NCBI GenBank assembly: GCA_947168335.1
Contig: CAMVLM010000007.1
Location: 1-49,873 of the forward strand
From: an uncultured Butyrivibrio sp.
GTDB lineage: Bacteria > Bacillota > Clostridia > Lachnospirales > Lachnospiraceae
Length of the DNA stretch: 49,873 bases
Direction: 5' to 3'
Shown: piece by piece, positions 29,728-30,074 of the stretch
How positions within the stretch are numbered: position 1 is the stretch's first letter
Layout: each line of letters starts with the position of its first letter
Notes under the pieces: model-generated
Seen by the model: only the letters and a program-made list of their open reading frames with translations
Database searches by the model: none
What the model was told of the DNA's origin: nothing
Position numbers and translations under genes: made by a program

Positions 29728-29756
29728 TTGACAACATCCTTCTATCGAGATATACT
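29728..29756 (+). promoter_or_regulatory. Sigma-A promoter of tRNA-Met
   Basis: TTGACA-N17-TATACT, 40 nt upstream of the tRNA. Confidence 0.9.
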
Positions 29757-29795: not shown

Positions 29796-29869
29796 GGCGA
29801 GATAGCTCAGTTGGCTAGAGCACGCGGTTCATACCCGCGGTGTCGAGGGTTCGAATCCCCCTCTCGCTA
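29796..29869 (+). tRNA. tRNA-Met (CAT), probably elongator
   Basis: GGCGAGA acceptor/TCTCGCT, GCTC..GAGC D-stem, anticodon arm CGCGG-TTCATAC-CCGCG, T-arm GAGGG-TTCGAAT-CCCCC. CCA not encoded. Confidence 0.93.
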
Positions 29870-29871
29870 CT

Positions 29872-29912
29872 AAAAAGAAGTTGTGTACTTTAGTACATGA
29901 CTTCTTTTTTAT
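29872..29912 (+). terminator. Intrinsic terminator after tRNA-Met
   Basis: AAGAAGTTGTGTACT-tt-AGTACATGACTTCTTTTTTATTT. Confidence 0.85.
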
Positions 29913-29927
29913 TTCGAATATGTTGTT

Positions 29928-30074
29928 GATTTGAACCCGAGCCACTGCGGGCGCAGTGGTGAAGGTGCAAATCGTCCGGAAGGTGCTGCTTGTCCTGGGT
30001 TGCTGCTTGTCCTGGGGACAAGCGTTCAGCAACGACCGGAGCGAAGCGTAGATCGAATTTCCCTCTCACTACTA
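29928..30074. other. Structured repeat element bounded by an imperfect copy of the tRNA-Met 3' end
   Basis: GATTTG/CAAATC enclosing CCACTGC-gggc-GCAGTGG; nested TCCGG/CCGGA, TGCTG/CAGCA, CTTGTCC/GGACAAG; ends with TCGAATTTCCCTCTCACTACTA versus tRNA end TCGAATCCCCCTCTCGCTACTA. Confidence 0.7.
29984..30017. repeat. 17-bp tandem duplication
   Basis: TGCTGCTTGTCCTGGGT followed directly by TGCTGCTTGTCCTGGGG. Confidence 0.95.

Follow-up and report, generated by a model that had tools for sequence, protein, structure and literature searches.

The feature behind the tRNA-Met gene of the window (the whole 49,873-nucleotide stretch of DNA analysed here) is probably a tRNA-associated cassette, with a non-coding, non-autonomous mobile hairpin that resembles the REP elements as its active part. 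A first-pass annotation of the same DNA had suggested, among other readings, a minimal tRNA-associated mobile repeat of about 200 bp. Part of that suggestion stands, as mobility, covarying base pairs, further copies genome-wide and a bias toward tRNA 3' ends were all found, but the size does not: the mobile unit is a module of about 55 bp, at positions 29999–30052, and not a free-standing 200-bp block.

The cassette at the tRNA-Met locus

The 3' end of the tRNA-Met, TCGAATCCCCCTCTCGCTACTA (29851–29872), recurs as TCGAATTTCCCTCTCACTACTA at position 30053 with 19 identities in 22 positions. This recurrence is far beyond chance: when the 400 bp downstream were shuffled 3000 times with dinucleotides preserved, no match exceeded 17/22, a value reached in one shuffle only. 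It had been described exactly in the first-pass annotation, in which all coordinates and letters are correct, and the arms GATTTG/CAAATC, CCACTGC/GCAGTGG, TCCGG/CCGGA and CTTGTCC/GGACAAG are found where it placed them. No open reading frame of the block was convincing on examination, as it had also concluded. The region folds at −63.3 kcal/mol, with a z-score of −2.7 against shuffles.

The comparison with other copies changes the meaning of several of these arms (Table 1). A hairpin does exist in the first of the two proposed fold domains, but positions 29928–29951 correspond to a degenerate inverted copy of the T-arm and variable region of the tRNA, which brings the copies of the tRNA end to three, in the order direct, inverted, direct. 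Clearer inverted copies stand at the equivalent place of four other tRNA-Met loci (L060, L062, L137 and L413). The TGCTG sequence that had been taken for an arm lies outside the true 5' arm, in a 17-bp tandem repeat of it. This duplication, which spans 29982–30015 together with the true arm and is absent from the other copies examined, misleads single-sequence folding of the window copy. The TCCGG/CCGGA helix was rejected: it receives no support from the relatives, in which CCGGA is part of an invariant unpaired tail whose supposed partner is not common to the other copies.

Table 1. Features of the tRNA-Met locus, in window positions
Feature	Position	Strand	Basis
Sigma-70-like promoter of the tRNA-Met gene, TTGACA-17-TATACT	29728–29756	+	11/12 consensus positions; pattern match only
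tRNA-Met (CAT), intact	29796–29870	+	ARAGORN; Rfam RF00005, 61.6 bits
Terminator-like hairpin AAAAAGAAG...CTTCTTTTTT, between tRNA and cassette	29872–29912	+	Sequence and fold; absent from the pattern-scan list
Inverted tRNA-Met T-arm/variable region (tRNA positions −37 to −13), degenerate	29928–29951	−	Sequence comparison
Turn-point hairpin CCACTGC-gggc-GCAGTGG, end of the inverted copy	29943–29960	+	Equivalent in relatives is CACCGCGGAGCGGTG
GGTGCTGCTTGTCCTGG, tandem duplicate (16/17) of the module 5' arm 29999–30015	29982–29998	+	Sequence; covariance model puts the module at 29999
Module hairpin: outer stem 29999–30004/30028–30033, inner stem 30005–30012/30016–30023, loop TGG, bulge GTTC	29999–30033	+	Covariation
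Invariant unpaired tail of the module, GACCGGAGCGAAGCGTAGA	30034–30052	+	Comparison of copies
tRNA-Met 3' end repeated in direct orientation (T-loop to acceptor; 19/22)	30053–30074	+	Sequence and shuffles

Structure, distribution and mobility of the module

The module contains about 51–57 bp and is built of a 14-bp hairpin with a 4-nt bulge, followed on its 3' side by an invariant unpaired tail of 19 nt, GACCGGAGCGRAGCGNAGA. In the window, the hairpin reads GTTGCTGCTTGTCC-TGG-GGACAAGC-GTTC-AGCAAC, and a covariance model, whose seed includes the window copy itself, places the whole module at 29999–30052. The register of the hairpin was examined in 126 sequences from public genomes that had been selected by the tail alone. 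At a single fixed upstream register, 76 of them form at least 12 of the 14 pairs, which only 0.1% of shuffles do. Many of the remaining sequences contain the same hairpin with a shifted length, and a few are unrelated chance matches from other phyla. An alignment of 32 copies has 94.6% of its cells paired, a percentage favoured by the fact that these copies were partly selected for hairpin formation, and changes on both sides at 12 of the 14 pairs, which such selection does not explain. The covariation score of the 32 copies is 0.58, whereas shuffles give 0.18 and slid registers no more than 0.11, and none of 500 shuffles scored as high. Compensatory change in the stems of the module is very strong; quasi-palindrome repair can yield such changes without selection on the folded form.

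By the covariance model, the module is found in 48 of 100 Lachnospiraceae genera and is rare in the rest of the class Clostridia (5 of 142 non-Lachnospiraceae genomes). The tail pattern occurs in 24 of 99 relatives, with up to 66 copies per genome, while a reversed control pattern gave one match in total; the named matches include Butyrivibrio, Pseudobutyrivibrio, Roseburia, [Eubacterium] cellulosolvens and E. ramulus. The genomes surveyed are mostly drafts or metagenome assemblies. Within the genome of the window (G000), a BLAST search with positions 29913–30074 yielded partial matches elsewhere, the pattern CCGGAGCGNAGCGNAG, taken from the shared part, matched seven sites with zero control matches, and the covariance model identified 12 copies. 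The tRNA sites of this genome include tRNA-Arg(acg) on contig C79, tRNA-Leu on C39, tRNA-Pro on C43 and a tRNA-Leu end on C126, with a decayed copy behind tRNA-Phe on C71, and those away from tRNAs include a peroxiredoxin gene (C55) as well as a Tag-like open reading frame present on both C55 and C188. The cassette of the window has no match in Rfam at the gathering threshold or at E-values up to 10, and other copies have no match there either. The literature on REP and RPE elements, tyrT/RtT, Lachnospiraceae palindromes and group IIC introns, searched mostly outside subscription journals, does not describe the element. The module family is therefore widespread and apparently undescribed, an earlier description being possible; as a structured mobile repeat in about half of the Lachnospiraceae genera, it would be a common, overlooked feature of gut and rumen genomes.

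The peroxiredoxin gene of G000 (L046/L233, G000:C55:9618–10118) carries 51 extra bases that correspond exactly to a module and add 17 codons in frame, and because this clean insertion is absent from 15 aligned orthologs the module is mobile. In this comparison, the only clean one with empty sites, the flanks meet at TGGAAAG^AGAA and show no evident, and in particular no long, target duplication. A second conserved open reading frame, presumably a 3-methyladenine glycosylase-like (Tag-like) gene judging from its motif, is also interrupted by the module. Its two copies (L394 on C55 and L395 on C188) contain the identical insertion at GGG, and an in-frame reading of it was rejected, as the frames are broken.

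Other copies show how the module is arranged relative to itself and to larger repeats. In L406, one module sits inside the hairpin loop of a second one, and tandem modules occur with a period of 53 (L103) or 51 (L119). Many genomes contain identical copies, several of them directly behind terminators and often within larger, genome-specific palindromic repeats, so that the moving unit may often be larger than the module. These larger repeats, of which CCTTCCCC...GGATGAGGGG is an example, were seen in G055 (L273–L292), G116 (L373–L378) and G211 (L397–L400), and several in this set begin right after the T-run of a terminator.

The usual insertion point follows a GG or AG and typically lies at a hairpin loop, for example the T-loop of tRNAs: one of these dinucleotides stands just before the hairpin in 55 of 77 copies (including those that start with G), and T is found at −2 in none of the 77. 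A preference of the non-tRNA copies for terminators is only suggestive, since the figure of 57%, compared with 23% for random points, counts tRNA copies as well. Group IIC introns, which were also considered, insert behind terminators.

Duplicated tRNA ends and their origin

The association with tRNAs was measured on 107 hairpin-bearing copies from an unselected scan, 26 of which lie within 300 bp on the 3' side of a tRNA gene and two within 300 bp on the 5' side, against 1.4% of random points in the same records. Most copies are thus found elsewhere than at tRNAs. When 197 tRNA genes from seven genomes were surveyed, 15 gave a direct copy of their own 3' end, and 11 of these copies were accompanied by the module tail; the others consist of three loci with a decayed or variant module (L011, L038 and L350) and a contig-edge artefact (L339). 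The duplicated tRNA end and the module therefore go together, although the cassette is carried by a minority of the tRNA genes (about 16/197).

The same cassette anatomy recurs behind about ten kinds of tRNA, with some 150 bases of exclusively non-coding sequence between the tRNA-end repeats. The module breaks the second tRNA copy at the border between T-stem and T-loop or, in the tRNA-Pro and tRNA-Ala loci, after the AGAGG of the variable loop. It is found on either side of the T-stem/T-loop border, and hence in either orientation relative to the tRNA. An inverted copy of the T-arm is often located between the terminator and the module, being clear in the Met and Leu loci and weak in the Arg loci. 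The terminator is repeated in L060, L178, L179 and L407, which indicates that whole units were tandemly duplicated, and tandem cassette units occur in L407, L069 and L158. In L407 (G175:C29:1–900), two tandem 167-bp cassettes, identical where compared, stand behind a tRNA-Met. Near another tRNA-Met (L211, G023:C104), a Met-type tRNA body with a CTT anticodon was observed; it has the appearance of a duplicate whose anticodon has changed, and both genes carry the cassette.

The succession of direct, inverted and direct tRNA copies could be produced by recombination only, as a small tandem inversion duplication in which template switching at the palindromes of the terminator and the T-arm generates the triplication, while the module plays no active part and only indicates fragile hairpins. 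The order of the copies, the inverted copy of L052, which continues from the terminator palindrome, and the duplicated terminators of L060, L178 and L179 are consistent with it. We nevertheless regard this explanation as improbable, because the survey yielded essentially no tRNA-end duplication without the module, because L350 and L011 carry the module in a simple direct duplication that has no inverted copy, and because the module inserts alone elsewhere, as in the peroxiredoxin gene. In L350, the plain direct copy of the tRNA 3' half, split by the module, stands before the terminator.

A repeat of the tRNA 3' end is also the hallmark of attachment sites, and the remnant of an excised island had been offered as one alternative in the first-pass annotation. 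In this case, a phage, an integrative element or an island would have used and duplicated the tRNA 3' end as its attachment site and then been lost. The direct repeat that such a scar requires is real, and on contig C126 of G000 (L003/L045) an integrase-like open reading frame, read by eye, ends beside the 3' end of a tRNA-Leu with a cassette beyond it; this region is probably the far end of an integrated element. Against a scar, the same content of about 150 bp, in which only non-coding sequence lies between the repeats and which is sometimes arranged in exact tandem units, is found behind many kinds of tRNA and in many genera, the boundaries differ (T-loop or variable loop), and the orientation varies. 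The phage and plasmid collections contain no match to the module, and 2.9 million viral contigs gave only five pattern matches. The scar was rejected on the shared anatomy and the empty phage and plasmid records, and its probability is very low.

Across species, the distal copies track the tRNA genes that they follow. Of 51 comparable cases among 61 tRNA loci, the distal copy was closer to its own tRNA than to the counterparts of that tRNA in other species in 43, less close in 6 and equally close in 2. A tRNA-Met near an M42 peptidase gene, in the same orientation, carries the cassette both in G000 (the window) and in G005, where about 1.2 kb more separates the gene from the tRNA. Seven pairs differ between the stems of these two cassettes, all of them compensated, and the distal copy of G005 (L413), at the position equivalent to 30053–30074 of the window, matches the tRNA-Met 3' end exactly. 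At the orthologous tRNA-Arg(acg) locus, which shares a convergent neighbour with 84% identity, two modules are present in G000, while G027 retains just the remnant of a tail. The tracking of the own tRNA together with this turnover of loci implies that cassettes form locally and repeatedly, or that they are kept in step by recombination or selection.

This tracking, the constant architecture behind about ten kinds of tRNA and the stems maintained through compensatory change, also between G000 and G005, would also fit a functional RNA linked to the tRNA, a structured ncRNA having been the remaining first-pass reading. Transcription of the cassette would then come from the opposite strand or from polymerases that pass the tRNA terminator, with the module as a domesticated structural domain, and the second tRNA 3' half and the inverted copy would pair with the tRNA or mimic it, for example as a decoy of a processing enzyme, somewhat like rtT. 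Such a function seems unlikely, given the small share of tRNAs that carry a cassette, the common occurrence of decayed cassettes, the terminator-like hairpin that stands before the cassette and the orientation of the module, which varies among loci. Moreover, most copies of the module lie away from tRNAs and some interrupt genes.

Mobilisation and relation to known systems

The link of the mobile hairpin with tRNAs raises the question of how an element can settle in the T-loop of an essential tRNA while the tRNA stays intact. We propose that it moves as a folded single strand, of DNA or, less likely, of RNA, and that an enzyme acting in trans would recognise the folded module and insert it into hairpin loops exposed in single-stranded DNA. 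A tRNA whose only T-loop received the module would be lost, and the survivors would thus be those events that were coupled to a local duplication, either direct or, by template switching at the palindromes of the terminator and the T-arm, direct–inverted–direct. Such events would leave an intact tRNA upstream and an interrupted copy downstream, and the units may later expand or shrink when the repeated tRNA ends recombine. The effect of the cassette on the host is probably neutral, although selection could instead be the reason why the distal copy follows the tRNA so closely. A more specific variant, which we consider doubtful, is that tRNA T-loops are the specific target of the hairpin and that the insertion reaction itself restores the tRNA by copying the tRNA's 3' half; if true, the element would colonise essential tRNA genes harmlessly, with the pseudo-tRNA half kept in step.

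A resident Y1/RAYT transposase was rejected as the mobiliser, since the counts of Y1 transposases do not follow those of the module in 61 genomes of the same genus (G037 has 12 modules and no Y1, and G060 has 14 Y1 and no modules).

Several known systems share part of this anatomy. As at tRNA attachment sites, the tRNA 3' end is duplicated downstream of an intact tRNA, but the insert is a gene-free stretch of about 150 bp with varying boundaries and orientation, and the repeats enclose no integrase. Tandem inversion duplications and quasi-palindrome template switching also give direct, inverted and direct copies with turn points at palindromes; the cassette units, in contrast, measure tens of bases and are always linked with the module, whose dispersal these processes do not explain, as they do the duplication of the tRNA end. 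In the tyrT operon of E. coli, the RtT RNA (RF00391) corresponds to 178-bp repeats that stand in tandem behind a tRNA, each opening with a copy of its 3' end. The tandem units of L407, L069 and L158 likewise follow a tRNA and include its 3' end, whereas the cassette has no match to RF00391, occurs behind many kinds of tRNA in many genera, and has a hairpin module that is also present away from tRNAs. Unlike a MITE, the module is a single hairpin with a tail, has no terminal inverted repeats and, in the peroxiredoxin gene, was inserted with no evident target-site duplication. The insertion in frame of a short hairpin into this protein gene is reminiscent of the Rickettsia palindromic elements (RPE), from which the module differs in its sequence and host group, in its strong association with tRNAs and in the breaking of a second open reading frame.

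The closest likeness is to the REP elements (PMC3733652), which also combine a short hairpin with a conserved unpaired motif, are dispersed in intergenic regions and sometimes inside genes, have no coding capacity, form tandem and dimer arrangements, and keep their structure while the sequence varies. The tag of the module, however, is the 19-nt tail 3' of the hairpin and not a GTAG or CGTC next to the stem; GTAG was seen only as one GNAG variant of the conserved unpaired sequence, about 14 nt past the stem. The stem also has a fixed 4-nt bulge, and there is no correlation with RAYT/Y1, a partner that the CGTC REPs likewise lack (PMC3733652). The terms "Firmicutes" and "Clostridi-" do not occur in the main text of that paper (PMC3733652). 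As it lacks the defining tags and the transposase partner, the module was not assigned to the REP or RPE families and is a short structured mobile repeat set apart from both. Given how strongly its stems covary, the module is well suited as a model of hairpin-dependent transposition in Firmicutes, and its copies can mislead annotation in the form of extra peroxiredoxin codons, false att sites and tRNA fragments.
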